A stretch of DNA of 64,000 bases from Bryoerythrophyllum caledonicum (lineage: Eukaryota; Streptophyta; Bryopsida; Pottiales; Pottiaceae). A model generated the notes under the pieces. The model was not told the DNA's origin and ran no database searches. It worked only from the letters and a program-made list of their open reading frames with translations. The DNA is taken from assembly GCA_963971425.1 (NCBI GenBank), contig OZ020521.1, positions 4,853,519-4,917,518 of the forward strand. The letters are read 5' to 3'. Shown in pieces: positions 4,714 through 34,392 of this stretch (the stretch's first letter is position 1; every line of letters starts with the position of its first letter). The position numbers and the translations under genes were made by a program.

Positions 4714-4755
4714 AACATGGAATTCGCTAAATATGCACTTGGCCAATTTTACTTC
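4714..4755 (-). repeat. Putative 3' terminal sequence of E1
   Basis: Sequence starting AACATGGAATTCGC and continuing through TATGCACTTGGCC marks the left boundary of the duplicated block. Its reverse complement matches the 3' ends of E2-type elements at about 21400-21435 and 28566-28601. It is also present at 28931. Confidence 0.55.
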
Positions 4756-5072
4756 ACTCCTTCGCTGCATATGGTTCACTCATCCAAATCAATGTAACCA
4801 TGAATTTTTTTTGGAAGTGCGGAGATATAGGACATTGGTAACCACATACATAAAAGCCATTGTTTAATTTAAGGTAAGACACAACATCACTTTTTTCAAT
4901 TGTTCTCCATACATTTTGCAACTTATGCAACCACTTTCATGTCATTTTTTATATTATATCATTGCATACTAAAAAAAATTACAACTTTGATCTACTCTTC
5001 CTAAAACTAAGATAAATCCACGATCAGGAACTAAACATCGCTAGATTCTGTCTTATATGTGATACGTAGATT

Positions 5073-5077
<5 letters not shown>

Positions 5078-5136
<59 letters not shown>

Positions 5137-5271
5137 TATATATATATATAATTATATATATAATTATATATATATATATAATTATATGCATATATTCTCG
5201 TCTACATACCATTTTCTATATCCTTCTAAATACGATTTTCTTCTCTATTTTTCTATGTACATATATTAATA

Positions 5272-5324
<53 letters not shown>
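5078..5324. repeat. AT microsatellites downstream of the transposase gene
   Basis: Two runs of (TA)n are present, about 5078-5187 (interrupted by AATT) and 5275-5324. The corresponding runs in the second copy (29294-29357 and 29445-29486) are shorter. These length changes account for the 55-bp offset between the two E1 copies. Confidence 0.9.
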
Positions 5325-5327
<3 letters not shown>

Positions 5328-5477
5328 ATAGACATATGGATGTCTACAAATTATAGATATGTATATATTTTCAAATATGCACATACCAATATGTAACAAT
5401 ATACTATATACAACGGATGATGTAGTAAATATACAAGTATAAGCTACACCTTTTCATAAAAATTTATAACTTCATCT

Positions 5478-8400
5478 TCAGCACGCCACCTGATTGGCTA
5501 TAAGGTCATTCTCCACTTCTTCATCCTGCCTTGCCATGAGGTCCAACAGATGTGCTCTCATAGGTTCCGGTATACGAATCCCTTTCTCTGTCCGTACGCC
5601 ATGTACACTACAATGAGACTCCACGACCTTTCCCTTCTTGTTACTCTTGGTTGTATGCATCCACGATATCCAACCTGTTTCAATGGGTACCCAATCTGAC
5701 ATTTCATACGAAGGCTCCCAAATTGCATGAAGACAATTGTTGTATCGTTGATGCCATTCTCCTTCTTCATCCCTTCTTCCTGCCTTCGCTCTCGGCCAAT
5801 ACCACACAACCTTCATCTCTCCCTCTGGATTGTTTCTATTTTTGAATTCTGTAACCTTACCCAAGAAGAATGGTGCTCCTGCTAGGACATCATCCTGGGT
5901 TACAGATAAGGCAACAAAGTGTCCAAGTTCAATGTCTATGAAAGGATCAAAGGCTGGAAATGGATCACCTTGTCCAATAGCACTGTGAGGTAGAACACTT
6001 CTGCCCAAATGTACATTCTTCTGGCTTGCACGAGCTCTCTTCACAGCCGCTGTAGATGGCTTGTTCTTCTTTGGTCCAAAATAGCCTCTTGGTACTGCGT
6101 CTGGAAGAGTCGATAGCACCGGATCGTCTTCAACTTCAACATTATTTGAAATCACTGAAGTTGTTGCTTGTGATGTACCTGGCTCCGTTGTCCGAGAAGT
6201 TGTGACAAATTCATCAGGCCAAAACGGATCTCCTTCTGCTTCTCTCCGTTCTCTTTTCGGGAATTCTGTAAGATATGTGATCAATTTCTCTGTTTCTTCA
6301 ATGGCATCCATACTCTTATCCACGTGCCGAAAAAGTCTCACGGCTCGTTCTTTGTACCTTATGAAGTCCCTCAAGGCCTTTATTTCTCTTGCATCTTCTC
6401 CCCTCACTTCGGCAAACTTCGGCTTCTCCCCAACTATGGGTAGTCTTGCCAGACATCTATATCCATCTGAACTTTGCCATACCTCGCGACAATCTTCCTT
6501 GTATTGGACATAGGCTTCTCCATCCTTCAAGAAGAATCTCATGTGTTGAGGGATGGTTATGCCCACCAACGCATCACCTCCAACCAATAAATATGGGGTT
6601 ATGAACTCTCTCCAGTTCCAAATGTTTTCCATGTGCCTCGCCTTGACAAATGCCTCTGTGCTTGAAGCTCCCTTTTCAATCAGCTGTAAGAGTTCCTTCA
6701 ATGAATCAATGTCCCCCTTCTTCAAAGTCCTGGATATGATACTAAATCGTTGATCAATGTCCTCGTGCGTATGTCCCACAAGTAGAAAGGACAAGCGCAC
6801 CTCTCGAAAATATCCTAGCCCCACCAAGCATGCGCATAATGCAAACACGTAGATGTTTTTGTTCTCACGGCAACAATTGTCTGCTTGTATCCGCAAGGTC
6901 GGAGGAAGCCCGCCACGTCTTCGATGCACATCTCCAACAACATTCATGATGGACGTTACCACTTGATTGCTATCATGAGCATGATGTGCATCAAACCAAA
7001 CATCTGCATACAATCCCACACCGTGAACCAATACACCACACAGATGGGTCTTCACAAATCTTGACTCCATGTTCTTCACCGATTGCCGTATGCGAGGAAC
7101 CATAGTTGTGGTTTGATCCATGCCATCCACTATCAAACACATGTGTTGGTCCGGTTCAAGAATGGCCTCTTTCTTTGATTTCCAATAGTCGCGTCTCTCT
7201 TCCATTTGGTGTACCCCGTGTTCGTCTTGCTTCTTCTTTATTTTGGCTCGTGTGTCTGCATTAGTGGTGCCCTCTCTAGCACACTTGTACTCCCAACAAG
7301 ATGAACATTTGGAAAACCTAGAAAATGGAGGGATTTGCACATGAGGAAACTCCAAGCGCCACAACTTCCCAAATCGCACTTTGCTGATCGCATTCCCCTC
7401 TGTTCCACACACTATTTTGGCTTGCGCATTCACATAATCGTACACTTCCGCCCTGGTTGTGTTCATAGGAAGAAGCACCAAAGTCACAACCTTTTTATCT
7501 AACCTTCGCCTCATAAACCGATGTGGTTGCGGATCTCCAGCTTCTTCAATAAAGGCCTCAAAGCATGTCCTTGCAGCCGATACACCATTGCTTTCCCGAA
7601 GTCTGTGCCTATTGCCATGTATAGGTCGCACTCGGTTCCTGTCAAGTACTATACGTTTCTGTTCCTCCACCCATCTGCGCGAGTATCCTATCCCCATTGC
7701 AAAACATGAATTACAAACTTGTTGTCCATCTATTTTGGTGTTGAACCATGGCCTGCAATGATTAGGAGATGTTTCTTTGCAATTCTCCAATCTTTGTAAC
7801 AACCAAAACCTACGACCCTCGTGCACACCTTTCTCCCAAGCCAAACATCTCTCATCAAGAACTTGCTTTGCTGAAAAGTTTCGAAGACAATTTCTCTTAC
7901 ACCCACCTTTGCGGATTGCCCTTGTAACACTTGGTATTGATAATTTCATGGCTAAGCACTCCCCCCTTTGGCGTTCCTTGATCCCCTTTGGTCTGCGATT
8001 CTTCATAATATATGGCCGCTTCAATACTTCTCGCTCACCTTCAACAACATTGTCAGTACACCAATCCTCTGCTTCCTCAGGAAGCCGTGGTGAACAACAC
8101 GATTCATTAGTTCTCAATGGGCCAGTTCCATTGGAGACGTCAACCTCTTGTATTGTGCTCAGACCATCCTCAAAAGTGGTTGCCCCTTGATTGTTGTCAT
8201 ATTGCACTTCACTCCCTCCATCTGTTCCACCTTCATAGAATTGAAAAGGGTCTTCTGTGATCCTGTCACTTATGTTCTCCACATCCATTATTCCAAGCCT
8301 CTTCCACCTGATTAGAGCACCTACACTGGATCCCAAACGATCATGGTTTGGTTCCCCGATCCAATACGAATCATCGAAGACCTCTACCACTTTGATAGCA

Positions 8401-8705
8401 ACCTCTGATGGAAATAGAGTCTCACCCTCCAACATCATACCCGGCTTTATTTCTGCCACTATAATGCCACAACCCACATGCTCCTTTGTCTCCCCCAATA
8501 GCATCACCCGATGCTCCGCATCCATTTCAGACGATGTTGATGCTCTGAACCGTTGAGATGATGGAGCCCTTCCAGCACAAAGAACACGAGCTCCAATTGA
8601 CAAGGGATGGCCTCCTCCCATTGTCGTGCCTCGCACACAACTTGGCTTATTTGTTGATGCTCTTCCATCCATGATAACAATGACTACCTCTCTGTCCAAA
8701 AACAA
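5478..8705 (-). CDS. DUF7869-domain transposase-like protein (E1, copy 1), intact
   Basis: A 1075-residue uninterrupted ORF. The first ATG is at 8705, but the ATG at 8672 (protein MDGRAST...) aligns with the ATG of the related E2 gene (MESRTI...) and may be the real start. Seen in order: a variable N-terminus; a Cys-containing region around GGCKRNCLRNFS and VCNSCFAMGIGYSRRW; a Cys cluster FSKCSSCWEYKC; then an RNase H-like core with IVDGMDQ (D527), IQADNCCRENKN (D609) and VGHTHEDIDQRF (E648, D649, D651); then IWNWREFITPYL. The C-terminal third has GHFVAL...PFFLGKV...VVWYWPR, a small beta-rich module that often follows this core. The Asp/Asp/Glu layout is consistent with a DDE transposase, but the catalytic assignment is inferred from conservation. 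The protein is identical to the copy at 29640-32867. No introns are needed, as expected for a young mobile gene. Confidence 0.82.
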   Translation of the reverse strand: MFLDREVVIVIMDGRASTNKPSCVRGTTMGGGHPLSIGARVLCAGRAPSSQRFRASTSSEMDAEHRVMLLGETKEHVGCGIIVAEIKPGMMLEGETLFPSEVAIKVVEVFDDSYWIGEPNHDRLGSSVGALIRWKRLGIMDVENISDRITEDPFQFYEGGTDGGSEVQYDNNQGATTFEDGLSTIQEVDVSNGTGPLRTNESCCSPRLPEEAEDWCTDNVVEGEREVLKRPYIMKNRRPKGIKERQRGECLAMKLSIPSVTRAIRKGGCKRNCLRNFSAKQVLDERCLAWEKGVHEGRRFWLLQRLENCKETSPNHCRPWFNTKIDGQQVCNSCFAMGIGYSRRWVEEQKRIVLDRNRVRPIHGNRHRLRESNGVSAARTCFEAFIEEAGDPQPHRFMRRRLDKKVVTLVLLPMNTTRAEVYDYVNAQAKIVCGTEGNAISKVRFGKLWRLEFPHVQIPPFSRFSKCSSCWEYKCAREGTTNADTRAKIKKKQDEHGVHQMEERRDYWKSKKEAILEPDQHMCLIVDGMDQTTTMVPRIRQSVKNMESRFVKTHLCGVLVHGVGLYADVWFDAHHAHDSNQVVTSIMNVVGDVHRRRGGLPPTLRIQADNCCRENKNIYVFALCACLVGLGYFREVRLSFLLVGHTHEDIDQRFSIISRTLKKGDIDSLKELLQLIEKGASSTEAFVKARHMENIWNWREFITPYLLVGGDALVGITIPQHMRFFLKDGEAYVQYKEDCREVWQSSDGYRCLARLPIVGEKPKFAEVRGEDAREIKALRDFIRYKERAVRLFRHVDKSMDAIEETEKLITYLTEFPKRERREAEGDPFWPDEFVTTSRTTEPGTSQATTSVISNNVEVEDDPVLSTLPDAVPRGYFGPKKNKPSTAAVKRARASQKNVHLGRSVLPHSAIGQGDPFPAFDPFIDIELGHFVALSVTQDDVLAGAPFFLGKVTEFKNRNNPEGEMKVVWYWPRAKAGRRDEEGEWHQRYNNCLHAIWEPSYEMSDWVPIETGWISWMHTTKSNKKGKVVESHCSVHGVRTEKGIRIPEPMRAHLLDLMARQDEEVENDLIANQVAC

Positions 8706-9424
8706 AGCAAGACTATCTTTTAATTCTTTAAAAGAAAAAGACTATCTCCTCCAATTAGCGGTGCCAAAATACATATACACCATTGCCTTCACCCCTTGCA
8801 CATATTCAACGCAATCTAATTTTTTTACATCAATTCCCAGATTGCTTACTCTTTTTCATCCCCTAATGACCATAACTTCTAAGTTGGGTTTAAGCACATC
8901 TCAAACACGTTCCCATCCTTGCAGTTTATACTTTTAGATTTTAAGACTTTGAACACATATGCCACAATGTAAGAACTATGTGGTACAATAACTTTTATTT
9001 TCATTGAACTTGTAGAAAGAAGTTCATGCCATCTTCAAACATAGTTGTTGAAAACAGGCGCGTCAGACGACTTCCAAATGGCTTGCACAACGTTCTCTCA
9101 AATCAAAGACTCTTGATCCAAAAACGTAATATCCACACGATCCTTAATTTTGTCAAAACAAAGAATAATAACAGTAAATCTTCCCTTTCCTCGAAAAAAC
9201 CCCTCTACCCCAAGATACGCATTGTTGGACAATATACAAAAAAAATGTCTTACGCTCCACATTAAAACTAGAGCTCTGCATGCTAATTACAACATATTTT
9301 CAAAAACTTCAAGACGTTGTATACCCCTCCAATTAAAAGATAGCTTCAACTCACATTCTAAAACCATGTATCAAACTCCTCAAGAAAGAAACGAAACAAA
9401 AATACAACTTGGAAACCCTCAAAG

Positions 9425-10230
9425 CTCCACTCCTTGCACAAATTATTTGAAAATGCGACAACACTCTCCAGCCTTTAAAATTTTGTGAACAAGGAGTTGA
9501 TTGCATGTTCAACATGATTGTACTAGATTAAAATATTTTGAAGGGCAAAAACCACACATAAAATGATAACAAAGTCAGCTGAACCTCTCAAAGGAGTAAA
9601 ATAGATGACATTCTTCCTACATTCAAACACTATAATCATCCGATCAGTACAGTCAAAATTTATGAAATTTTGTGAGCATGTTAATGACTAAGACGTGTTC
9701 AAGATCCTAAGGTCAAAACTCCAAAAAAAACCAAGATTTTCTCCTTTACACCCTACAACATAGTCTACATTGTTCAGGCGGTTTCGGTAGGAGTTCGTCA
9801 AGAAACTCCAGGTGTTAAGAAAACTCAATGCAACACAAGGGAGGGGTAGAGGCCTCGACCCCTCTTCCTCTACGCAAAGGAATCACATAACAACTTTGAA
9901 AGCTCACATACCTTGCACATGTCTTGATAGAAAAAAACCAAAGATCACGCGACACCAATCAACCAACGCATTGTTTCATCTACCGCTTCAAAAAAAAACG
10001 ACCTTCAAGTCTATGCGAAAATGCTATGAAGCAAAACACTCTTCAAACAAATGAATCCTTGAGGTTAGATTGAATCCTAAAATATTTCCAAATTGAATCC
10101 ATATAAAAAAATATTGATCAATAAACACTTTACAAAAGCCTATAACCCATTGGTTAAATAATAGACTAATCTAATTCATTTTTAAAAGGTCAAATCCGAC
10201 AATAGTAAAATGAAAAACTGATACCATTTT
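9425..10230 (+). repeat. Diverged satellite monomer at the upstream edge of E1, copy 1
   Basis: From CTCCACTCCTTGCAC onward this region aligns with the tandem units to its right, with many substitutions. It includes one copy of the GC-rich palindrome with a single mismatch (TAGAGG instead of TCGAGG, near 9841-9864). It lacks the roughly 640-bp part of the unit that carries the GTGGGNCCCAC palindromes. It looks like an older, shorter form of the monomer. Confidence 0.8.
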
Positions 10231-11012
10231 GAAGTTCGAATGGAGAGAGCGGGCCCGTCGGGCAACTCCAAATACTTTTGCTAAGACACTCTATTGAAGG
10301 TGATATTTTCAACAACGACAAATAATATTATTTCCTTTCATCTTGTCAAGAAAAATCTCTTGTCTTTAGTGAGAAATAGCATATGAATCCAAGTCATACA
10401 TTTTCACACATTGTCGCACATTGTCGGGCTAAGTACCAAAAAATCTTCTTCTTTTCCACATAAAACTTAGTGATCTTCATATTTTTACTTTTTTATTTTC
10501 CCCACGGCATTGTGCGGTGTAAACCTTTCCATTGACCATTCGGATTCTCATTCTAGAACATATTAGGTTCACAAAAAAATAAAACGTGAATTGATAGTTT
10601 TTGAACCTCCACTCCTTGCACAATTTTTTTGAAAATGCTACAACTCTCCCCAACCTCTAAAATTTTGTGAACAAGGAGTTGATTGCATGTTCAACATGAT
10701 TGTAATAGCTTAACATATTGTGTAGTGCAAAAAATTCACAACAAGTGATGTCAAAGTCAGCTGATCCTCTCAAAGCATTAAAAAAAATGACATCTTCCTA
10801 CATTTCAAACGCTATAATCTTCCGATCCGTACGGTCAAAAAATGTGAAATTTTGCAGGCATGTTAATGACCTAGTCGTGTTCAAGATCCTACGGTCAAAA
10901 CTTGAAAAAAAGACCCGGAGTTTCTCCTTTACACCCTACAACAGAATCTACATTTTTAAGGCGGGTTTTGTCAAGAAACTCTAGGTGTTAGGAAAAACCA
11001 ATGCAACAAAGG

Positions 11013-11036
11013 GAGGGGTCGAGGCCTCGACCCCTC
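11013..11036. repeat. Perfect 24-bp GC-rich palindrome in array unit 1
   Basis: GAGGGGTCGAGG is followed directly by its reverse complement, with no spacer. The same palindrome is at 12889-12912 in unit 2. It could extrude as a cruciform. It contains overlapping TCGA and AGGCCT sites. Confidence 0.9.
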
Positions 11037-11463
11037 TTCCTCTACGCAAAGGAATTACGCAACAACTTTGAAAGCTCACATACCTTGCACATGTCTTGAT
11101 AGAAAAAACCCAAAGATCGCGGGACGCCAATCAACCACCGCATCGTTTCGTCCACCGCTTCAAAAAAAAAACAAAACGACCTTCAAGTCCATGCGGAAAT
11201 CCTATGAAGCAAAACACTCTTCTACCAAATGAATCCTCGAGGTTAGCTTGGATCCTTATATACTTCCAAATTGAATCCATATTTAATAATATTGTTCAAT
11301 AATAGAAAAATATTACAATAATCCAAATTGAATCCATATTTAGTATTGTTCACTTTACAAAATCCTATAATCCATTATTTGAATATTAGACTTATCTAAT
11401 TCACTTTTGGAAGGTCGAATTGGACGATAAAAATAGAATCAAGATATTTCATCACGACACCAT

Positions 11464-11693
11464 GTGGGGCCCACACGAAGTTCATATTAACTACTTTTGC
11501 CCATAACTTCGTATCATCATAACTTATACCCGAATGGAATATTCGATGACTTTGGAGCAAAGGTGAAGTATGGTACGGTGGGTCCCACCACATGGATGCT
11601 TTGTGGATCAACATTCCAACAATGCAAATATGATCATTGGTGTGTGAAGATCTACCGGATATAAATAGTATGTGGGGCCCACGTGGGACCCAC
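11464..11693. promoter_or_regulatory. Four GTGGGNCCCAC palindromes with a TATA-like box (per unit; unit 1 shown)
   Basis: GTGGGGCCCAC at 11464-11474, GTGGGTCCCAC at 11578-11588, GTGGGGCCCAC at 11672-11682 and GTGGGACCCAC at 11683-11693. The last two abut and create a CACGTG G-box core. TATAAATA lies at 11660-11667. GTGGGNCCCAC matches the known binding consensus of plant TCP transcription factors. The set recurs in every amplified unit and is absent from the diverged monomers. A promoter role is an inference. Confidence 0.45.
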
Positions 11694-14600
11694 CGTACAC
11701 TTATATGTCTCTTACCGTAATAAATGCACAAATGGATATCTATGATATTGGGAGTGAGACCCTCCAAATATTGCCACATGGAGGGAGAGAGGATTTAGAG
11801 AAAAAGTTCAAGGGGGTGGGGACCGCGGTGTATTTTTGGGGGGGCACTTACTGTTATGCTTTTTCTTCATATACCTAAGGCAACCCGGGCATCTAAAGTG
11901 AATAGCGGGTATCTAAAATAAATGAGTGGGACTACCCTTGACCCCTAAATTACCAAGATTGACCTTCAAGGACCGGGCGGGTTCCGCTTGTGTCAATCTT
12001 TAGCATTCTTTTCCAAAAAATTATCGTAGATGGACATTACTAAAAGCTTTGTGTGAGTCCAAGTTTTTCCCCAATCCGACATTTAATGAAAAAGTTATAC
12101 GGTTTTGAAGTTCGAATGGGGAGAGCGGGCCCGTCGGGCAACTCCAAATACTTTTGCTAAGACACTCTATTGAAGGTGATATTTTCAACAACGACAAATA
12201 ATATTATTTCCTTTCATCTTGTCAAGAAAAATCTCTTGTCTTTAGTGAGAAATAGCATATGAATCCAAGTCATACATTTTCACACATTGTCGCACATTGT
12301 CGGGCTAAGTACCAAAAAATCTTCTTCTTTTCCACATAAAACTTAGTGATCTTCATATTTTTACTTTTTTATTTTCCCCACGGCATTGTGCGGTGTAAAC
12401 CTTTCCATTGACCATTCGGATTCTCATTCTAGAACATATTAGGTTCACAAAAAAATAAAACGTGAATTGATAGTTTTTGAACCTCCACTCCTTGCACAAT
12501 TTTTTTGAAAATGCTACAACTCTCCCCAACCTCTAAAATTTTGTGAACAAGGAGTTGATTGCATGTTCAACATGATTGTAATAGCTTAACATATTGTGTA
12601 GTGCAAAAAATTCACAACAAGTGATGTCAAAGTCAGCTGATCCTCTCAAAGCATTAAAGAAAATGACATCTTCCTACATTTCAAACGCTATAATCTTCCG
12701 ATCCGTACGGTCAAAAAATGTGAAATTTTGCAGGCATGTTAATGACCTAGTCGTGTTCAAGATCCTACGGTCAAAACTTGAAAAAAAGACCCGGAGTTTC
12801 TCCTTTACACCCTACAACAGAATCTACATTTTTAAGGCGGGTTTTGTCAAGAAACTCTAGGTGTTAGGAAAAACCAATGCAACAAAGGGAGGGGTCGAGG
12901 CCTCGACCCCTCTTCCTCTACGCAAAGGAATTACGCAACAACTTTGAAAGCTCACATACCTTGCACATGTCTTGATAGAAAAAACCCAAAGATCGCGGGA
13001 CGCCAATCAACCACCGCATCGTTTCGTCCACCGCTTCAAAAAAAAAACAAAACGACCTTCAAGTCCATGCGGAAATCCTATGAAGCAAAACACTCTTCTA
13101 CCAAATGAATCCTCGAGGTTAGCTTGGATCCTTATATACTTCCAAATTGAATCCATATTTAATAATATTGTTCAATAATAGAAAAATATTACAATAATCC
13201 AAATTGAATCCATATTTAGTATTGTTCACTTTACAAAATCCTATAATCCATTATTTGAATATTAGACTTATCTAATTCACTTTTGGAAGGTCGAATTGGA
13301 CGATAAAAATAGAATCAAGATATTTCATCACGACACCATGTGGGGCCCACACGAAGTTCATATTAACTACTTTTGCCCATAACTTCGTATCATCATAACT
13401 TATACCCGAATGGAATATTCGATGACTTTGGAGCAAAGGTGAAGTATGGTACGGTGGGTCCCACCACATGGATGCTTTGTGGATCAACATTCCAACAATG
13501 CAAATATGATCATTGGTGTGTGAAGATCTACCGGATATAAATAGTATGTGGGGCCCACGTGGGACCCACCGTACACTTATATGTCTCTTACCGTAATAAA
13601 TGCACAAATGGATATCTATGATATTGGGAGTGAGACCCTCCAAATATTGCCACATGGAGGGAGAGAGGATTTAGAGAAAAAGTTCAAGGGGGTGGGGACC
13701 GCGGTGTATTTTTGGGGGGGCACTTACTGTTATGCTTTTTCTTCATATACCTAAGGCAACCCGGGCATCTAAAGTGAATAGCGGGTATCTAAAATAAATG
13801 AGTGGGACTACCCTTGACCCCTAAATTACCAAGATTGACCTTCAAGGACCGGGCGGGTTCCGCTTGTGTCAATCTTTAGCATTCTTTTCCAAAAAATTAT
13901 CGTAGATGGACATTACTAAAAGCTTTGTGTGAGTCCAAGTTTTTCCCCAATCCGACATTTAATGAAAAAGTTATACGGTTTTGAAGTTCGAATGGGGAGA
14001 GCGGGCCCGTCGGGCAACTCCAAATACTTTTGCTAAGACACTCTATTGAAGGTGATATTTTCAACAACGACAAATAATATTATTTCCTTTCATCTTGTCA
14101 AGAAAAATCTCTTGTCTTTAGTGAGAAATAGCATATGAATCCAAGTCATACATTTTCACACATTGTCGCACATTGTCGGGCTAAGTACCAAAAAATCTTC
14201 TTCTTTTCCACATAAAACTTAGTGATCTTCATATTTTTACTTTTTTATTTTCCCCACGGCATTGTGCGGTGTAAACCTTTCCATTGACCATTCGGATTCT
14301 CATTCTAGAACATATTAGGTTCACAAAAAAATAAAACGTGAATTGATAGTTTTTGAACCTCCACTCCTTGCACAATTTTTTTGAAAATGCTACAACTCTC
14401 CCCAACCTCTAAAATTTTGTGAACAAGGAGTTGATTGCATGTTCAACATGATTGTAATAGCTTAACATATTGTGTAGTGCAAAAAATTCACAACAAGTGA
14501 TGTCAAAGTCAGCTGATCCTCTCAAAGCATTAAAGAAAATGACATCTTCCTACATTTCAAACGCTATAATCTTCCGATCCGTACGGTCAAAAAATGTGAA

Positions 14601-14764
14601 ATTTTGCAGGCATGTTAATGACCTAGTCGTGTTCAAGATCCTACGGTCAAAACTTGAAAAAAAGACCCGGAGTTTCTCCTTTACACCCTACAACAGAATC
14701 TACATTTTTAAGGCGGGTTTTGTCAAGAAACTCTAGGTGTTAGGAAAAACCAATGCAACAAAGG

Positions 14765-14864
14765 GAGGGGTCGAGGCCTCGACCCCTCTTGCCATACAAC
14801 ACAAGGCCATACAACACAAGGCCATACAACAAACACAAGGGAGGGGTCGAGGCCTCGACCCCTC
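14765..14864. repeat. Duplicated palindrome cluster in array 1 unit 3
   Basis: Two perfect 24-bp palindromes (14765-14788 and 14841-14864) flank two GCCATACAACACAAG repeats and one longer variant. Units 1 and 2 have a single palindrome and none of the spacer repeats. This is intermediate between the one-palindrome units and the three-palindrome units of array 2. Confidence 0.9.
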
Positions 14865-15976
14865 TTCCTCTACGCAAAGGAATTACGCAACAACTTTGAA
14901 AGCTCACATACCTTGCACATGTCTTGATAGAAAAAACCCAAAGATCGCGGGACGCCAATCAACCACCGCATCGTTTCGTCCACCGCTTCAAAAAAAAAAC
15001 AAAACGACCTTCAAGTCCATGCGGAAATCCTATGAAGCAAAACACTCTTCTACCAAATGAATCCTCGAGGTTAGCTTGGATCCTTATATACTTCCAAATT
15101 GAATCCATATTTAATAATATTGTTCAATAATAGAAAAATATTACAATAATCCAAATTGAATCCATATTTAGTATTGTTCACTTTACAAAATCCTATAATC
15201 CATTATTTGAATATTAGACTTATCTAATTCACTTTTGGAAGGTCGAATTGGACGATAAAAATAGAATCAAGATATTTCATCACGACACCATGTGGGGCCC
15301 ACACGAAGTTCATATTAACTACTTTTGCCCATAACTTCGTATCATCATAACTTATACCCGAATGGAATATTCGATGACTTTGGAGCAAAGGTGAAGTATG
15401 GTACGGTGGGTCCCACCACATGGATGCTTTGTGGATCAACATTCCAACAATGCAAATATGATCATTGGTGTGTGAAGATCTACCGGATATAAATAGTATG
15501 TGGGGCCCACGTGGGACCCACCGTACACTTATATGTCTCTTACCGTAATAAATGCACAAATGGATATCTATGATATTGGGAGTGAGACCCTCCAAATATT
15601 GCCACATGGAGGGAGAGAGGATTTAGAGAAAAAGTTCAAGGGGGTGGGGACCGCGGTGTATTTTTGGGGGGGCACTTACTGTTATGCTTTTTCTTCATAT
15701 ACCTAAGGCAACCCGGGCATCTAAAGTGAATAGCGGGTATCTAAAATAAATGAGTGGGACTACCCTTGACCCCTAAATTACCAAGATTGACCTTCAAGGA
15801 CCGGGCGGGTTCCGCTTGTGTCAATCTTTAGCATTCTTTTCCAAAAAATTATCGTAGATGGACATTACTAAAAGCTTTGTGTGAGTCCAAGTTTTTCCCC
15901 AATCCGACATTTAATGAAAAAGTTATACGGTTTTGAAGTTCGAATGGGGAGAGCGGGCCCGTCGGGCAATTCCAAA

Positions 15977-16269
15977 CGTGCCCTTGTCTTTGCAAATGGC
16001 ACAACTTACGTTTTGGAAAAATTGGCTTACGCCGAATCGAGTACAACTGGTGCTCCGTTTTTGTACCTCAGATCGCACTTGGCACTTTGGGGATCTCTAT
16101 GATTTTGGGCTTCGAGTGGCTTGGAGGGGGTGGGCCCTTATATTGATGGCACGTTTTCATTTTAGTTGGTCGATAGGTATTTTTCAGAATTTCTTTTGGC
16201 AAGGTTGGCATGTGCATGACATCAAGACATGTGCAAGGTATGTGAGCTTTCAAAGTTGTTGCGTAATTC
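15977..16269. other. Array 1 edge: unrelated sequence ending in an inverted satellite fragment at the assembly gap
   Basis: Satellite homology stops at about 15976 and is replaced by about 245 bp of unrelated sequence. From 16221 to 16269 the sequence is the reverse complement of the unit segment that lies just to the right of the palindrome cluster (compare 11052-11100). The contig then stops about 13 bp before the palindrome would be reached in that inverted unit. Confidence 0.75.
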
Positions 16270-16469
16270 NNNNNNNNNNNNNNNNNNNNNNNNNNNNNNN
16301 NNNNNNNNNNNNNNNNNNNNNNNNNNNNNNNNNNNNNNNNNNNNNNNNNNNNNNNNNNNNNNNNNNNNNNNNNNNNNNNNNNNNNNNNNNNNNNNNNNNN
16401 NNNNNNNNNNNNNNNNNNNNNNNNNNNNNNNNNNNNNNNNNNNNNNNNNNNNNNNNNNNNNNNNNNNNN
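16270..16469. other. Assembly gap (200 N)
   Basis: Exactly 200 undetermined bases. A round number suggests a placeholder of unknown true size, so linkage and distance across it are uncertain. Confidence 0.98.
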
Positions 16470-16879
16470 TCAAGCATCACTACGTATACGGCTAACACCT
16501 GCAACGTATCTTGAGGTAAACACTTATTTTTATACAAGTTTAAGATTGATTCTTGATTGATCTTTTGTACTATGTTGTTTGTAGAATAACCTTTGTGTGG
16601 ATGTACAAACCCTTTCTTTTATTAGCGATTGTAACAAGTTCCAATGGTGTCAGTAATAGCAAGTAGACAACATGGTTCACTTTCTTCCATAGGTTCAGTG
16701 GATTCCCTTTGTTTCAGTTCACTTGAATTCAAAAGGTTGCATCACACATGATTTAGGTTCACTATCATCATGTGAAGAATGATTAGTTTCATTATACACC
16801 ATTGTTTATGAATGCAAAAGAGGTGTAGCATATTTAACTACAATGGATCAAGTGTCAAAAATTGGCTTGTTGAACGTTC
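16470..16879. other. Unassigned AT-rich sequence right of the gap
   Basis: No open frame of note, RNA gene or recognisable repeat seen. It lies between the gap and the diverged monomer upstream of E2, and could hold the 5' end of E2. Confidence 0.4.
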
Positions 16880-17750
16880 GGCCAGGTTTCTATGGTGTCA
16901 ATTTCCAACATTCCTCTTTGAAAATTTTACTATAGAAAGGCATTACCAAAACCTTAGTGGGAAAACAGTTTTTACCTAAATTAGACATTTGATCAAAAAG
17001 TTTTAGGGTTTTAAATGTCAAATGGGGAGAGCGGGCAAGTCGGGCACCTCAAAAAACTTTTGCTAGGACACTCTGTTGATTGTGAGATTTTCTGTACTCG
17101 AAAGTAATATTATTTCCCTTGATGTTGTCAAAATAAGTTCTTGTCTTTAGTGAAAAATAGCATACCAATCAAAATCAAACATTTTCACACATTCTTAGTC
17201 AGTGTTGGACAAGGTAGCAAAAAAACTTCATCTTTTCCAAATAAAACCTAGATATCTTTTTATTTTACACTTTTTATTTTTTTCACAACAATATGTGGTG
17301 TAAACCTTCTTATTGACCATTTGGATTACGAATCTAAAACATATTAAGTTCACAAAAAATTACAATGTGAATTAACAAATTTCGAACTTCTACTCTTTGC
17401 ACAATTGTTTGGAATATTCTACACCCGTCCTCTACCTCTAAAAAATGGTGTACAAGGAACTAACAACATGCTTAACAAGATGGTAATGGGTTTAGACCTT
17501 GTGTAGTGCAAAATTTGACTCCAAGGGAAGTCAAAGCTTGCTAATCCACTGCACGCAAAGAAGAAAATGAACCATATGGTTGACTTCAAACACTATAATC
17601 TCTCAATCCGTGCGGTCAAAGTTTATGAATTTTTTTTACATATTGCTCAAATAAGTCTTAATTGAGATCCTACGGTCAAAAATAGAAATAAAAATTTTCG
17701 TTTCCCATATTTACATTGCACTAGAATCCAACAGTTCTGAAGTGTTTTTG
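16880..17750 (+). repeat. Strongly diverged satellite monomer upstream of E2
   Basis: It aligns in order with the array unit: the GGTGTCAATTTCC region, AATGGGGAGAGCGGGC near 17022, CTTTTGCTAGGACACTCTGTTG, the TTTGCACAATTGTTT region, TAGTGCAAAATTTGAC and GATCCTACGGTCAAAA. It lacks the GC-rich palindrome and the GTGGGNCCCAC segment. Relative to its neighbouring transposase gene it is in the opposite orientation from the monomer beside E1. Confidence 0.75.
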
Positions 17751-20900: not shown

Positions 20901-21192
20901 TGGGTCTTCTGCACAACGGTATGCAAATTGCATGGATTCATTATGGGAGCCATCTGGGGAGAGCCATAGTTGGGTAGAGAAAGATGCATGCATTTTTTCA
21001 TGGGTAGACACTTCGGAAAGAACCATGTCCGGGGCCAGCGGGTGGAGAAAGCGCAATGTATTTGGAGTGCAGGTTGAAAGCAGGATTCGCATTCTTCAAT
21101 CGGCAAAGGCTCACATCCTACAATATATTGCAATGCAAACCGAAGCTATCGATGACGACCGTTTGCAAGCAGCCCTAAATTCTATGGAGTAG
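17962..21192 (+). pseudogene. DUF7869-domain transposase (E2), inactivated by an in-frame stop
   Basis: A diverged relative of the 5478-8705 protein, colinear over its whole length. The conserved start is the ATG at 18001; an in-frame ATG at 17962 exists. The frame is open to a TAG at 20023-20025, at the position where E1 has Glu in RHMENIWNW, then continues in the same frame to 21192. The total is 1077 codons against 1076 in E1, so one substitution broke an otherwise full-length gene. Core motifs are IVDGMDQ (D522), IQADNCTRENKN (D604) and VGHTHKDIDQRF. The Glu of E1 (E648) is Lys here (K643), a second lesion if that residue is catalytic. The Cys cluster (FSKCYHCWEYKC) and the C-terminal GQFVDL...PFYVGKV...VCWYWP module are kept. 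Probably non-autonomous or dead. Confidence 0.82.
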
Positions 21193-21246: not shown

Positions 21247-21435
21247 TATGTGTAAGAGTAGTATATTCTAAGGGTGGTGTAAGACGTTATGTCATTAATC
21301 CTTTAGAGTAAAGTTGTGTTTACTATTGGTGCTAAGTCCAATTGTTGAAGCATCTATATTTATTTTTCACCATTGTATGCATTATGTACCCAAGTGCACT
21401 TTTAAATGGCCAAGTGCATAATTGCTTAATTGCGT
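21247..21435 (+). repeat. 3' end of E2, copy A
   Basis: Positions 21247-21389 recur at 28087-28229 with about 10% differences. Positions 21386-21435, ending TGGCCAAGTGCATAATTGC then TTAATTGCGT, recur at 28552-28601. The last part resembles the E1 3' terminus. Confidence 0.7.
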
Positions 21436-21505
21436 GTTATTATAGAAATTTAATAAATACTCATTTTGTAGAACAACCCGAGATACAAGATACATACTTC
21501 CAACC

Positions 21506-23416: not shown

Positions 23417-23515
23417 TCTCATCAAAAAATTCAAGATGTTATACCCTCATGAATGCGGGCACATGTAATGATAAACCACCAGAGAATACACTCCCTCCAT
23501 GGCTATTACCATGTA

Positions 23516-25461: not shown

Positions 25462-25479
25462 TATGGACTATTTTTTATG

Positions 25480-26240: not shown

Positions 26241-26247
26241 TACAAAC

Positions 26248-27194: not shown

Positions 27195-27196
27195 TA

Positions 27197-27642
27197 CATG
27201 CGTACAACAAAGATGCCAATGTAATGCACGACTAAAACCAGACCTACTATGCATAAAAGGACTACCCTACCAATCAAACCCCCCTACATCTCCCAACATC
27301 AATTTAAAGATACAATTTATAGAATTCACATACTATAATGACAGATTCTCACCAGATACCATTGAGAGAAAGATAGAAAAATACCAACCTCTCATCAACG
27401 ATATTATCAACAAAGGTTGGATAGTTGAACCACTAATAGTAATTACAGCAGGTGCCAGAGCATCTATATACATCCCTCCTATGAAAATCCTAAAAACCAA
27501 ACTCAAAATACCAAAGAAACTTATAAAAAATACATTTAGAGAAATAAACACAATTGCTATACACCATGCCATGTCCATAATATTACACAAAAGAAAAATA
27601 GAAAGCGGAGAGCCACTACCAACAGGCGTACAACCACCATAA
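27197..27642 (+). pseudogene. C-terminal coding remainder of the interrupted retroelement
   Basis: Immediately right of the Tc1-like insertion the frame continues with a Cys-rich stretch (TCVQQRCQCNARLKPDLLC), then IQFIEFTYYNDRF and PLIVITAGARASIYIP, to TAA at 27640-27642. It is in frame with the coding sequence left of the insertion (about 23388-23515). The role of this C-terminal region is unknown to me. Confidence 0.75.
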
Positions 27643-28086: not shown

Positions 28087-28601
28087 TATGTGTAAGAGTA
28101 GTATATTCTAAGGGTGATATAAGACGTTATGTCATGAATCCTATAGAGTAAAGGTGTTTTTACTATTGGTGCTAAGTCCATTCGTAGAAGCATCTATATT
28201 TAGTTTCCACCATTGTATGCATTATGTACTACGTAGAATATCTTTTAATCAACTGCCAACCCTTGCATAAAGTATGTTTTTTTGTGATTATGCCTATTTG
28301 TATACTACAATCCTTCAAATCTATCTTTGAAATATTGTGAAACTATATTAAATACACATTTATCTAGTATTAACGAGGGGCCACCAAAAATTAGTTGAAA
28401 ATGCCAAAAAATCGCTTCCAATATTAACAACCGTGACTGTACGTAATATTGTTGCAGAAGCTCAATTTTTTTTCCTTTGGAAAACATTTTTTTTCTTTGA
28501 TTTTTTGTTTTGGTTGCAATTTTGCCACTTTTATTCGCAATGGCCGCCGTCGTACCCAGGTGCACTTTTAAATGGCCAAGTGCATAATTGCTTAATTGCG
28601 T
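28087..28601 (+). repeat. 3' end of E2-type element, copy B, with a 322-bp insertion
   Basis: 28087-28229 matches 21247-21389, and 28552-28601 matches 21386-21435. Between them, 28230-28551 has no counterpart in copy A and is flanked by GTAC on both sides, which fits a 4-bp target duplication. No inverted termini were seen on the insert. Confidence 0.6.
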
Positions 28602-28699
28602 ATTTTACATGTTTTAAATTTTTTTTCCAACTCCAAAACTCGGCCTCTCGACATAGTTTGGTCCTTGACATAGTTCGGTACACGGACTGCGTGTGAAAC

Positions 28700-28930
28700 T
28701 CCTTGTTCTAGTGCAATAAGTAATGAGGTAATCAAAACGTGTTGTGTCTACATTTAACCGTAGGATCTAAATCAAGACTTGTTGATTAACGTCTTCACAA
28801 AATTTCAGAAAACTTGACTCCACAGATTGAAAGACTATAGTGTTTGAAGTGGAGAAAACAGTTATATTTCCTCCCTACATTGAGTGGATCAACAGACTTT
28901 GACTTCACTTGGTGTCAAATTTTTGCACTA
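28700..28930 (-). repeat. Inverted diverged satellite monomer fragment
   Basis: The reverse complement aligns with 17500-17730 (TAGTGCAAAATTTGAC, the TTCAAACACTATA region, GATCCTACGG, TTGCACTAGAA). It ends abruptly at 28930 in ...TTTTGCACTA, where the second E1 copy begins. Confidence 0.7.
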
Positions 28931-29291
28931 AACATGGAATTCGCTAAATATGCACTTGGCCAATTTTACTTCACTCCTTCGCTGCATATGGTTCACTCAT
29001 CCAAATCAATGTAACCATGAATTTTTTTTGGAAGTGCGGAGATATAGGACATTGGTAACCACATACATAAAAGCCATTGTTTAATTTAAGGTAAGACACA
29101 ACATCACTTTTTTCAATTGTTCTCCATACATTTTGCAACTTATGCAACCACTTTCATGTCATTTTTTATATTATATCATTGCATACTAAAAAAAATTACA
29201 ACTTTGATCTACTCTTCCTAAAACTAAGATAAATCCACGATCAGGAACTAAACATCGCTAGATTCTGTCTTATATGTGATACGTAGATTTC

Positions 29292-29293
<2 letters not shown>

Positions 29294-29354
<61 letters not shown>

Positions 29355-29441
29355 TATGCATATATTCTCGTCTACATACCATTTTCTATATCCTTCTAAA
29401 TACGATTTTCTTCTCTATTTTTCTATGTACATATATTAATA

Positions 29442-29486
<45 letters not shown>
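29294..29486. repeat. AT microsatellites in E1 copy 2
   Basis: (TA)n runs at about 29294-29357 and 29445-29486, shorter than the matching runs in copy 1. Confidence 0.9.
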
Positions 29487-29489
<3 letters not shown>

Positions 29490-29639
29490 ATAGACATATG
29501 GATGTCTACAAATTATAGATATGTATATATTTTCAAATATGCACATACCAATATGTAACAATATACTATATACAACGGATGATGTAGTAAATATACAAGT
29601 ATAAGCTACACCTTTTCATAAAAATTTATAACTTCATCT

Positions 29640-32600
29640 TCAGCACGCCACCTGATTGGCTATAAGGTCATTCTCCACTTCTTCATCCTGCCTTGCCATG
29701 AGGTCCAACAGATGTGCTCTCATAGGTTCCGGTATACGAATCCCTTTCTCTGTCCGTACGCCATGTACACTACAATGAGACTCCACGACCTTTCCCTTCT
29801 TGTTACTCTTGGTTGTATGCATCCACGATATCCAACCTGTTTCAATGGGTACCCAATCTGACATTTCATACGAAGGCTCCCAAATTGCATGAAGACAATT
29901 GTTGTATCGTTGATGCCATTCTCCTTCTTCATCCCTTCTTCCTGCCTTCGCTCTCGGCCAATACCACACAACCTTCATCTCTCCCTCTGGATTGTTTCTA
30001 TTTTTGAATTCTGTAACCTTACCCAAGAAGAATGGTGCTCCTGCTAGGACATCATCCTGGGTTACAGATAAGGCAACAAAGTGTCCAAGTTCAATGTCTA
30101 TGAAAGGATCAAAGGCTGGAAATGGATCACCTTGTCCAATAGCACTGTGAGGTAGAACACTTCTGCCCAAATGTACATTCTTCTGGCTTGCACGAGCTCT
30201 CTTCACAGCCGCTGTAGATGGCTTGTTCTTCTTTGGTCCAAAATAGCCTCTTGGTACTGCGTCTGGAAGAGTCGATAGCACCGGATCGTCTTCAACTTCA
30301 ACATTATTTGAAATCACTGAAGTTGTTGCTTGTGATGTACCTGGCTCCGTTGTCCGAGAAGTTGTGACAAATTCATCAGGCCAAAACGGATCTCCTTCTG
30401 CTTCTCTCCGTTCTCTTTTCGGGAATTCTGTAAGATATGTGATCAATTTCTCTGTTTCTTCAATGGCATCCATACTCTTATCCACGTGCCGAAAAAGTCT
30501 CACGGCTCGTTCTTTGTACCTTATGAAGTCCCTCAAGGCCTTTATTTCTCTTGCATCTTCTCCCCTCACTTCGGCAAACTTCGGCTTCTCCCCAACTATG
30601 GGTAGTCTTGCCAGACATCTATATCCATCTGAACTTTGCCATACCTCGCGACAATCTTCCTTGTATTGGACATAGGCTTCTCCATCCTTCAAGAAGAATC
30701 TCATGTGTTGAGGGATGGTTATGCCCACCAACGCATCACCTCCAACCAATAAATATGGGGTTATGAACTCTCTCCAGTTCCAAATGTTTTCCATGTGCCT
30801 CGCCTTGACAAATGCCTCTGTGCTTGAAGCTCCCTTTTCAATCAGCTGTAAGAGTTCCTTCAATGAATCAATGTCCCCCTTCTTCAAAGTCCTGGATATG
30901 ATACTAAATCGTTGATCAATGTCCTCGTGCGTATGTCCCACAAGTAGAAAGGACAAGCGCACCTCTCGAAAATATCCTAGCCCCACCAAGCATGCGCATA
31001 ATGCAAACACGTAGATGTTTTTGTTCTCACGGCAACAATTGTCTGCTTGTATCCGCAAGGTCGGAGGAAGCCCGCCACGTCTTCGATGCACATCTCCAAC
31101 AACATTCATGATGGACGTTACCACTTGATTGCTATCATGAGCATGATGTGCATCAAACCAAACATCTGCATACAATCCCACACCGTGAACCAATACACCA
31201 CACAGATGGGTCTTCACAAATCTTGACTCCATGTTCTTCACCGATTGCCGTATGCGAGGAACCATAGTTGTGGTTTGATCCATGCCATCCACTATCAAAC
31301 ACATGTGTTGGTCCGGTTCAAGAATGGCCTCTTTCTTTGATTTCCAATAGTCGCGTCTCTCTTCCATTTGGTGTACCCCGTGTTCGTCTTGCTTCTTCTT
31401 TATTTTGGCTCGTGTGTCTGCATTAGTGGTGCCCTCTCTAGCACACTTGTACTCCCAACAAGATGAACATTTGGAAAACCTAGAAAATGGAGGGATTTGC
31501 ACATGAGGAAACTCCAAGCGCCACAACTTCCCAAATCGCACTTTGCTGATCGCATTCCCCTCTGTTCCACACACTATTTTGGCTTGCGCATTCACATAAT
31601 CGTACACTTCCGCCCTGGTTGTGTTCATAGGAAGAAGCACCAAAGTCACAACCTTTTTATCTAACCTTCGCCTCATAAACCGATGTGGTTGCGGATCTCC
31701 AGCTTCTTCAATAAAGGCCTCAAAGCATGTCCTTGCAGCCGATACACCATTGCTTTCCCGAAGTCTGTGCCTATTGCCATGTATAGGTCGCACTCGGTTC
31801 CTGTCAAGTACTATACGTTTCTGTTCCTCCACCCATCTGCGCGAGTATCCTATCCCCATTGCAAAACATGAATTACAAACTTGTTGTCCATCTATTTTGG
31901 TGTTGAACCATGGCCTGCAATGATTAGGAGATGTTTCTTTGCAATTCTCCAATCTTTGTAACAACCAAAACCTACGACCCTCGTGCACACCTTTCTCCCA
32001 AGCCAAACATCTCTCATCAAGAACTTGCTTTGCTGAAAAGTTTCGAAGACAATTTCTCTTACACCCACCTTTGCGGATTGCCCTTGTAACACTTGGTATT
32101 GATAATTTCATGGCTAAGCACTCCCCCCTTTGGCGTTCCTTGATCCCCTTTGGTCTGCGATTCTTCATAATATATGGCCGCTTCAATACTTCTCGCTCAC
32201 CTTCAACAACATTGTCAGTACACCAATCCTCTGCTTCCTCAGGAAGCCGTGGTGAACAACACGATTCATTAGTTCTCAATGGGCCAGTTCCATTGGAGAC
32301 GTCAACCTCTTGTATTGTGCTCAGACCATCCTCAAAAGTGGTTGCCCCTTGATTGTTGTCATATTGCACTTCACTCCCTCCATCTGTTCCACCTTCATAG
32401 AATTGAAAAGGGTCTTCTGTGATCCTGTCACTTATGTTCTCCACATCCATTATTCCAAGCCTCTTCCACCTGATTAGAGCACCTACACTGGATCCCAAAC
32501 GATCATGGTTTGGTTCCCCGATCCAATACGAATCATCGAAGACCTCTACCACTTTGATAGCAACCTCTGATGGAAATAGAGTCTCACCCTCCAACATCAT

Positions 32601-32867
32601 ACCCGGCTTTATTTCTGCCACTATAATGCCACAACCCACATGCTCCTTTGTCTCCCCCAATAGCATCACCCGATGCTCCGCATCCATTTCAGACGATGTT
32701 GATGCTCTGAACCGTTGAGATGATGGAGCCCTTCCAGCACAAAGAACACGAGCTCCAATTGACAAGGGATGGCCTCCTCCCATTGTCGTGCCTCGCACAC
32801 AACTTGGCTTATTTGTTGATGCTCTTCCATCCATGATAACAATGACTACCTCTCTGTCCAAAAACAA
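29640..32867 (-). CDS. DUF7869-domain transposase-like protein (E1, copy 2), intact
   Basis: 1075 residues, identical to the protein at 5478-8705, with the same Cys cluster, the same D527/D609/E648 core and the same C-terminal module. The start conserved with E2 would be the ATG at 32834; the first ATG is at 32867. Two intact identical ORFs mean this family was active, or its locus duplicated, very recently. It could supply transposase to decayed relatives such as E2. Whether it is expressed cannot be told from sequence. Confidence 0.82.
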   Translation of the reverse strand: MFLDREVVIVIMDGRASTNKPSCVRGTTMGGGHPLSIGARVLCAGRAPSSQRFRASTSSEMDAEHRVMLLGETKEHVGCGIIVAEIKPGMMLEGETLFPSEVAIKVVEVFDDSYWIGEPNHDRLGSSVGALIRWKRLGIMDVENISDRITEDPFQFYEGGTDGGSEVQYDNNQGATTFEDGLSTIQEVDVSNGTGPLRTNESCCSPRLPEEAEDWCTDNVVEGEREVLKRPYIMKNRRPKGIKERQRGECLAMKLSIPSVTRAIRKGGCKRNCLRNFSAKQVLDERCLAWEKGVHEGRRFWLLQRLENCKETSPNHCRPWFNTKIDGQQVCNSCFAMGIGYSRRWVEEQKRIVLDRNRVRPIHGNRHRLRESNGVSAARTCFEAFIEEAGDPQPHRFMRRRLDKKVVTLVLLPMNTTRAEVYDYVNAQAKIVCGTEGNAISKVRFGKLWRLEFPHVQIPPFSRFSKCSSCWEYKCAREGTTNADTRAKIKKKQDEHGVHQMEERRDYWKSKKEAILEPDQHMCLIVDGMDQTTTMVPRIRQSVKNMESRFVKTHLCGVLVHGVGLYADVWFDAHHAHDSNQVVTSIMNVVGDVHRRRGGLPPTLRIQADNCCRENKNIYVFALCACLVGLGYFREVRLSFLLVGHTHEDIDQRFSIISRTLKKGDIDSLKELLQLIEKGASSTEAFVKARHMENIWNWREFITPYLLVGGDALVGITIPQHMRFFLKDGEAYVQYKEDCREVWQSSDGYRCLARLPIVGEKPKFAEVRGEDAREIKALRDFIRYKERAVRLFRHVDKSMDAIEETEKLITYLTEFPKRERREAEGDPFWPDEFVTTSRTTEPGTSQATTSVISNNVEVEDDPVLSTLPDAVPRGYFGPKKNKPSTAAVKRARASQKNVHLGRSVLPHSAIGQGDPFPAFDPFIDIELGHFVALSVTQDDVLAGAPFFLGKVTEFKNRNNPEGEMKVVWYWPRAKAGRRDEEGEWHQRYNNCLHAIWEPSYEMSDWVPIETGWISWMHTTKSNKKGKVVESHCSVHGVRTEKGIRIPEPMRAHLLDLMARQDEEVENDLIANQVAC

Positions 32868-33586
32868 AGCAAGACTATCTTTTAATTCTTTAAAAGAAAA
32901 AGACTATCTCCTCCAATTAGCGGTGCCAAAATACATATACACCATTGCCTTCACCCCTTGCACATATTCAACGCAATCTAATTTTTTTACATCAATTCCC
33001 AGATTGCTTACTCTTTTTCATCCCCTAATGACCATAACTTCTAAGTTGGGTTTAAGCACATCTCAAACACGTTCCCATCCTTGCAGTTTATACTTTTAGA
33101 TTTTAAGACTTTGAACACATATGCCACAATGTAAGAACTATGTGGTACAATAACTTTTATTTTCATTGAACTTGTAGAAAGAAGTTCATGCCATCTTCAA
33201 ACATAGTTGTTGAAAACAGGCGCGTCAGACGACTTCCAAATGGCTTGCACAACGTTCTCTCAAATCAAAGACTCTTGATCCAAAAACGTAATATCCACAC
33301 GATCCTTAATTTTGTCAAAACAAAGAATAATAACAGTAAATCTTCCCTTTCCTCGAAAAAACCCCTCTACCCCAAGATACGCATTGTTGGACAATATACA
33401 AAAAAAATGTCTTACGCTCCACATTAAAACTAGAGCTCTGCATGCTAATTACAACATATTTTCAAAAACTTCAAGACGTTGTATACCCCTCCAATTAAAA
33501 GATAGCTTCAACTCACATTCTAAAACCATGTATCAAACTCCTCAAGAAAGAAACGAAACAAAAATACAACTTGGAAACCCTCAAAG

Positions 33587-34392
33587 CTCCACTCCTTGCA
33601 CAAATTATTTGAAAATGCGACAACACTCTCCAGCCTTTAAAATTTTGTGAACAAGGAGTTGATTGCATGTTCAACATGATTGTACTAGATTAAAATATTT
33701 TGAAGGGCAAAAACCACACATAAAATGATAACAAAGTCAGCTGAACCTCTCAAAGGAGTAAAATAAATGACATTCTTCCTACATTCAAACACTATAATCA
33801 TCCGATCAGTACAGTCAAAATTTATGAAATTTTGTGAGCATGTTAATGACTAAGACGTGTTCAAGATCCTAAGGTCAAAACTCCAAAAAAAACCAAGATT
33901 TTCTCCTTTACACCCTACAACATAGTCTACATTGTTCAGGCGGTTTCGGTAGGAGTTCGTCAAGAAACTCCAGGTGTTAAGAAAACTCAATGCAACACAA
34001 GGGAGGGGTAGAGGCCTCGACCCCTCTTCCTCTACGCAAAGGAATCACATAACAACTTTGAAAGCTCACATACCTTGCACATGTCTTGATAGAAAAAAAC
34101 CAAAGATCACGCGACACCAATCAACCAACGCATTGTTTCATCTACCGCTTCAAAAAAAAACAACCTTCAAGTCTATGCGAAAATGCTATGAAGCAAAACA
34201 CTCTTCAAACAAATGAATCCTTGAGGTTAGATTGAATCCTAAAATATTTCCAAATTGAATCCATATAAAAAAATATTGATCAATAAACACTTTACAAAAG
34301 CCTATAACCCATTGGTTAAATAATAGACTAATCTAATTCATTTTTAAAAGGTCAAATCCGACAATAGTAAAATAAAAAACTGATACCATTTT
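33587..34392 (+). repeat. Diverged satellite monomer at the upstream edge of E1, copy 2
   Basis: Counterpart of 9425-10230 with the three single-base differences listed for copy 2. It has the same internal deletion of the GTGGGNCCCAC segment. Confidence 0.8.

Follow-up and report, generated by a model that had tools for sequence, protein, structure and literature searches.

A 64,000-bp stretch of the Bryoerythrophyllum caledonicum genome (the window; C9:4853519-4917518, C9 being contig OZ020521.1) carries two copies of a gene, E1, whose product contains the domain of unknown function DUF7869, each followed by an array of a satellite with units of about 1.9 kb, together with a decayed relative of the gene, E2. 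We consider it very probable (about 0.9) that this satellite sits inside a family of foldback-type DUF7869 transposons, that the protein acts as the transposase, and that the arrays lengthen within the elements and move with them. We infer that the long arrays of DUF7869 elements move rather than regrow after insertion. The parts of the two elements of the window, A and B, are as follows (window coordinates, strand where one applies).

4710..4713: target duplication AAGT on the left side of element A, repeated after the right terminus at C9:4970094
4714..16269: left part of element A (terminus, gene, flank monomer, array, loop)
4714..4744, + strand: left terminus of element A, AACATGGAATTCGC...; complete copies carry it again, inverted, at their far end
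5075..5324: subterminal TA-rich microsatellite
5478..8672, - strand: E1 gene copy A, 1064 amino acids, DUF7869 (PF25273, Pfam E 1e-51), no internal stop, transcribed toward the terminus
8673..9421, - strand: region upstream of E1 gene copy A, also in the other gene-bearing copies read
9422..10208, + strand: flank monomer of copy A, a diverged, shortened unit between gene and array
10209..15976, + strand: satellite array A, three units (1876, 1876 and 1952 bp)
15977..16220: loop of element A, separating its opposed arrays, 99.7% identical to the loop of element B
16221..16269, - strand: start of the inverted array of element A, 49 bp at 100%, cut by the contig end
16270..16469: scaffold gap, exactly 200 N
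28706..28930, - strand: target of element B, an inner-domain homologue that resumes beyond the right end of B
28927..28930: target duplication ACTA on the left side of element B, with ACTA again after the right terminus at C9:4939725
28931..64000: first 35,070 of the 57,277 bp of element B (C9:4882449-4939725)
29640..32834, - strand: E1 gene copy B, identical to copy A
32835..33583, - strand: region upstream of E1 gene copy B
33584..34370, + strand: flank monomer of copy B
34371..64000, + strand: left-arm array of element B, 16 whole units to C9:4919768, then loop and inverted array

Element B was located at its far end by small probes and was read completely, without any N. From left to right it is composed of the terminus, the gene, 16 whole units, a loop of ~245 bp, nine inverted whole units, a gene remnant and the terminus again. 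AACATGGAATTCGCTAAATATGCACTTGGCC, the outer boundary of the E1 block, is found again in inverted orientation on the far side, and the same terminus stands inverted at both ends of the complete copies read. The E1 blocks of A and B are a near-perfect repeat (4714-11038 vs. 28931-35201, five mismatches and five gap openings in 6326 columns). By its coordinates, ~88% of element B is satellite, and its 25 whole units, with a mean substitution below 0.1%, form a long homogeneous tandem array. The two ACTA flanks meet with a 4-bp overlap on related sequence, the target being continuous across the insertion. The inverted piece reported there by the initial annotation was recovered at 28706-28934 (74% identity to the stretch upstream of E2; 73% to the satellite unit in the subpart 28753-28934), and element B inserted into its portion 28706-28930. 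The elements combine very long inverted ends with internal tandem repeats, the structure of foldback elements, with the inverted termini and fixed-length duplication of terminal inverted repeat (TIR) transposons. Toward their inner side the arms consist of the satellite unit, present as less than one whole unit per arm in some copies and as long arrays in others.

We have searched the whole genome (437 Mb, 894 contigs) for the first 29 bases of the terminus, allowing up to three mismatches. The pattern was found at 69 forward and 75 reverse places, and its reversed control at none in either orientation. Among the 100 of 144 places listed, 32 of the 36 neighbour pairs less than 70 kb apart faced inward, compared with a mean of 9.1 and a maximum of 18 in 10,000 strand shuffles, and the inward-facing pairs were 7.8-61.8 kb long (median 12.7 kb). 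Exact 4-bp duplications flanked 15 of the 20 copies with both ends read, the chance of a match being ~0.005 per pair. They comprised seven of a first batch of ten (A, B, the copies C3e, C6e, C9e and C9f described below, and a nested E2-type element) and eight of ten in a further survey, which took the ten shortest of the 32 inward-facing pairs. The nested E2-type element lies in C3e between two ATAA copies, and the corresponding empty site in C6e is clean and uninterrupted. Separately, at G000:C3:28589990-28600810 the outer flanks are reverse complements of each other, as if inverted copying had overrun the element.

These inverted termini at both ends and 4-bp duplications (15 of 20 read) are difficult to conciliate with a rolling-circle, Helitron-like movement in which the arrays would be rolling-circle products, and a Pfam scan of the E1 protein returned no Rep or helicase family. 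Such a movement could draw on the tandem arrays inside Helitrons and Helentrons reported in the relevant text of PMC12628747; we nevertheless regard it as extremely improbable, and membership of the Helitrons was rejected on the same two observations.

The TIR-type structure was found again in other gene-bearing copies. C3e (C3:18225463-18242778, 17.3 kb) and C6e (C6:28415162-28431847, 16.7 kb) are complete; their gene arm reads inward as terminus, 3' region, gene (transcribed outward), 749 bp of upstream sequence, flank monomer and an incomplete unit, and the other arm as 3' region, 240-bp gene remnant and inverted unit sequence. Where it was read in gene-bearing copies, the second arm contained no more of the gene than the 240-bp remnant. 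No internal stop interrupts the genes of A, B, C9e, C9f and C3e, and the C6e gene is broken by a 1371-bp insert also found to the right of the element. C9e (34,972 bp, duplication AAGT) and C9f (39,159 bp, duplication ATAA) are gene-bearing array elements whose inner parts were read in part, those of C9e to the lesser extent; the array elements of C9 other than A and B stand at 16.4 and 22.9 Mb. In the part read, the C9e array is short (one whole unit and a partial one, with two further inverted hits), and that of C9f amounts to about twelve units (six whole units read plus three unit-positive probes). A fifth array element, C3:30030241-30092065 (61,825 bp), was assigned by probes: five of five over 33 kb of one arm were unit-positive, and a centre probe and an inverted unit probe completed the pattern. 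At C6:10462868-10491557, unit probes were positive in both arms around the centre probe.

Three copies without a gene (C11, C3a and C7) are almost perfect palindromes; their arms measure ~4-6 kb and are 98.9-99.97% identical. C6e and C11 differ by ~6-8%. Arms so similar within diverged gene-less palindromes that have no duplication suggest arm copying or recombination between elements. In C3a, both palindrome arms contain an open reading frame (ORF) of 444-458 amino acids, transposase-like by eye, which was probably present before the arms became alike.

The place of the satellite within the elements could be followed in the window. As the initial annotation had claimed, each of the two intact genes has monomer-like DNA upstream (9422-10214 and 33584-34374; 81-89% identity to the unit in the aligned pieces), as does the decayed relative (16879-17726; 68-76%), and the E1-linked monomer gives way at 10209 to the uniform units. 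The similarities in the window had E-values down to 0, excluding chance. The suggestion that the transposon's flank or a long inverted terminal region seeded the array was correct in its second form: the long inverted terminal region supplied the unit, and the monomer is not flanking DNA. It had also been proposed that the array is part of the element and travels along with it; the array does lie inside, between two termini, and the movement of long arrays is what we infer. At the upstream edge of the E1 gene there was no target-duplication candidate longer than 6 bp, the far end of the element lying beyond the array. Terminus-like motifs that might give the protein additional binding sites were sought within the unit: terminus and unit shared no word of 11 or more bases, and six shared 10-mers compared with a shuffle mean of 2.8.

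A genome-wide search with a 646-bp part of the unit gave 2279 candidates, the best 40 of which were scored; all 40 fell within four gene-bearing elements. The corresponding search with the flank monomer (40 of 1541 candidates scored) yielded 56 matches; among them were seven inverted pairs, separated by 4-30 kb, whose members had the same or almost the same identity. All 17 distinct loci that were read had at least one of the terminus region, the gene or a piece of it, and the upstream region beside unit-like DNA, and 8 of the 14 unread loci have a listed terminus within ~12 kb, as judged by eye.

If the satellite had come first and DUF7869 elements preferred to insert into it, one could understand why the window alone shows monomer-like DNA on both sides of E1 copy B and why the target of element B is an inner-domain homologue. 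However, it is beyond the arrays, and not at the edge of the gene, that the termini and target duplications are found, and flank monomer and first unit occupy the same place in the gene-bearing copies read. The satellite as insertion target is thus contradicted for the elements read and was rejected, and we attach almost no probability to this order of events.

The units themselves informed on how the arrays behave. Those of copy A measure 1876, 1876 and 1952 bp and those of copy B 1980 or 1995 bp, in an array passing the window end. Most of the length difference among the 1876, 1980 and 1995-bp types is the copy number of a minisatellite around a 24-bp palindrome inside the unit (window 35163-35284, at the same place in other units). 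The order of 1980 and 1995-bp units in B partly recurs in three-unit blocks, and unit variants at columns 939, 1206 and 1869 are common to both B arms. Units of A and B diverge by 0.056-0.088%, like those within B (0.042-0.087%), and C9f units are 0.90-0.97% apart from those of A, B and C9e, with many fixed differences and 0.32% within C9f. The first unit beside the gene has a private base (column 18) common to A, B and C9f, suggesting that these three elements split from an ancestor whose array already contained two or more kinds of unit. C3e and C9f have the same nested insertion in the loop (three internal probes, 99.7% each) and genes that differ at 5 of 3195 nt, with less than one whole unit per arm in the first and about twelve units in the second. 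This contrast, together with the unit comparisons, indicates that array growth and homogenisation are fast.

The same comparisons allow a different history, in which elements insert with one or few units, the arrays grow later at each site and long arrays never move. The private fixed differences of the C9f units would be expected from growth in place, and so would the disparity between C3e and C9f, whose genes are nearly identical. On the other hand, the first-unit base of A, B and C9f points to an ancestor with two or more distinct units, A and B have in common the loop that joins the opposed arrays (99.7%), and their units are as alike between the two elements as within B. We consider growth in place unlikely, though with an appreciable chance of being correct.

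In the preferred reading, that of elements moving with their arrays, the DUF7869 protein would act as a transposase whose cuts at the shared terminus are staggered by 4 bp. The array would become longer and more homogeneous through replication slippage or unequal exchange among units and through exchange between the two inverted arms, and the element would insert elsewhere already carrying its array. Satellite DNA would in this way be dispersed by transposition and could regrow at each new site.

Element A has a more complicated setting, and as assembled it would span 112 kb. The end of contig 1 and the start of contig 3 overlap by ~560 bp at 97%, inside the loop; the contig 1 piece is the one 99.7% identical to the loop of element B, and a second scaffold gap lies at C9:4953763-4953962. 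Taken together, the overlap and the gaps point to a possible misplacement inside A of contig 2, which holds E2 and B: the whole of contig 2 (window 16470 to C9:4953762) appears to be scaffolded into the loop of element A, possibly by an assembly error. An element A of ~27 kb with contig 2 scaffolded into it is the simplest reading; the contig 2 content may also be nested inside element A. The 200-N gap puts array A and the decayed relative on separate contigs, and it is the scaffolding that brings them close together.

The two gaps (16270-16469 and C9:4953763-4953962) and the overlap of ~560 bp at 97% would likewise be compatible with A and B being one locus doubled by assembly error or segmental duplication instead of two insertions. 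The outer flanks of A and B differ, however, and each pair has its own matching duplication (AAGT and ACTA); array sizes and unit types also differ, and there are more array elements on C9 (16.4 and 22.9 Mb) and C3. Segmental duplication by itself was rejected on the differing flanks, duplications and arrays, and a single doubled locus seems to us highly unlikely.

E1 copies A and B are identical over 3195 nt, and Pfam DUF7869 (PF25273) matched the E1 protein with an E-value of 1e-51 and the E2 protein with 1.1e-42. As regards a transposase with a DDE/D catalytic core, the Pfam scan detected no known transposase family in the E1 protein, and it gave no Mutator- or P-superfamily match up to E 10; as the duplications are of 4 bp, not 7-10 bp, membership of either superfamily was rejected. 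A PDB sequence search with E1 gave no match with an E-value of up to 1, ARAGORN and Rfam (at gathering scores) found nothing, no relatives of E1 in viral contigs were confirmed, and a search for DUF7869 by name found no paper in the library consulted. We tentatively propose, at somewhat less than even odds, that DUF7869 marks an unrecognised superfamily of cut-and-paste transposases, with 4-bp duplications and 5'-AAC ends, compared with known families by Pfam scan alone; it would mobilise ~60-kb, mostly satellite palindromes and spread ready-made arrays between chromosomes. Sola, Ginger and others are superfamilies with 4-bp duplications.

Several observations weigh against the transposon reading or parts of it. 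The role of transposase is deduced from the position of the gene in the element, and the AlphaFold model of the E1 protein, built from two sequences, was too poor for use (pLDDT 38). Nonsynonymous to synonymous codon changes relative to the gene of A were 6 to 3, 10 to 7 and 5 to 5, and 14 to 4, 13 to 6 and 3 to 2 in other gene pairs; with nonsynonymous changes equal to or above synonymous ones, these counts do not demonstrate purifying selection. In the further survey, one pair of flanks differs at one base and another has mirror-image flanks, and no 4-bp duplication was found at the three gene-less palindromes C11, C3a and C7. The pairing of the two ends of element A crosses scaffold gaps. 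The column-18 marker is a single base, which the first unit of C9e lacks. All ten probes of the long pairs C11:18379473 and C8:16191768 were negative for the unit, and thus not every large element is an array element. The check on clean loss of gene plus array at empty sites, put forward by the initial annotation, gave such a site for the related nested E2-type element; for a gene-plus-array element none turned up, and no copy was caught moving.

Satellites derived from foldback elements are a known kind. Known foldback elements belong to the Mutator or P superfamily and have duplications of 7-10 bp, as far as described in PMC4079207 and PMC3573991. In the account of Tetris of Drosophila virilis and its TIR-220 satellite (PMC4079207), tandem repeats inside foldback ends gave rise to the satellite. 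As in our elements, Tetris has long inverted ends with a tandem-repeat domain, an outer domain between terminus and repeats, and arrays that arise inside the element and turn satellite-like. According to the sections of that source used here, Tetris copies have no conserved ORFs and an autonomous copy was not found, whereas in the moss the intact gene is in the same element; moreover, the Tetris repeat is ~220 bp with a target site duplication (TSD) of 8-10 bp, compared with a ~1.9-kb unit, a TSD of 4 bp and array elements of ~27-62 kb. Galileo of Drosophila mojavensis (P superfamily, PMC3573991, as excerpted) resembles our family in inverted ends that vary in length through tandem repeats and in chimeric copies with non-matching duplications, but is described with up to three repeats of ~210 bp, ends of up to ~1.26 kb, 7-bp duplications and another transposase. 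Elements of tens of kb are also found among the giant eukaryotic DNA transposons, in the descriptions drawn on from PMC6431247 and PMC12477816, and those of Ectocarpus (PMC12477816) have nested insertions common to several copies, as do C3e and C9f; the size of giant transposons is there attributed largely to genes, captured genes and nested elements, whereas ~88% of element B is satellite. Pfam gives no function for PF25273, which is here placed within an element with inverted ends and 4-bp duplications. New features are the unclassified DUF7869 gene family, the presence of an intact gene in copies with arrays, a unit of 1.9 kb and a size of 27-62 kb.

The origin of satellites and their arrival on many chromosomes are a long-standing problem. 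In this genome, less than one unit per arm, intermediate numbers and 16 plus 9 whole units coexist in young elements whose genes are intact and whose ends are defined, which would make growth rate, arm-to-arm exchange and array movement directly measurable. A jumping gene may thus carry and spread its own satellite, a part of its inverted ends amplified in tandem to as many as dozens of copies, and a domain of unknown function, DUF7869, is linked to a mobile element whose terminus and target duplication are defined.

Further features of the window belong to the E2 family.

16879..17726, + strand: inner-domain homologue upstream of E2 (77-78% to the inner domain, ~74% to the unit)
17962..21192, + strand: E2, decayed DUF7869 relative, ORFs 17962-20025 (51% amino acid identity to E1) and 20044-21192
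21408..21441, - strand: E2 terminus, reverse complement of AACACGCAATTAAGCAATTATGCACTTGGCC, with a subterminal motif in common
28087..28607, + strand: solo E2-type end, pieces 28087-28229 and 28552-28607 (92% and 96% to the E2 3' end)

The decayed relative represents an older related family. It ends with a terminus related to the E1-type terminus, and its monomer-like stretch is slightly closer to the E1-type inner domain (77-78%) than to the satellite unit (~74%). The orientation of the monomer relative to the gene is opposite in E1 and E2, as previously annotated, which a palindromic element holding the domain both ways could explain.

Two other observations were made between E2 and element B. 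A second foldback-like element occupies 23507-27204. Its 959-bp inverted arms, at 99.6%, each contain about two tandem copies of 370 bp (75% alike) and enclose a Tc1/mariner-type transposase ORF (24628-25461). Finally, a 493-amino-acid ORF at 21506-22987 has an RNase H domain and a sub-threshold PCIF1_WW match, and is perhaps part of a retroelement.
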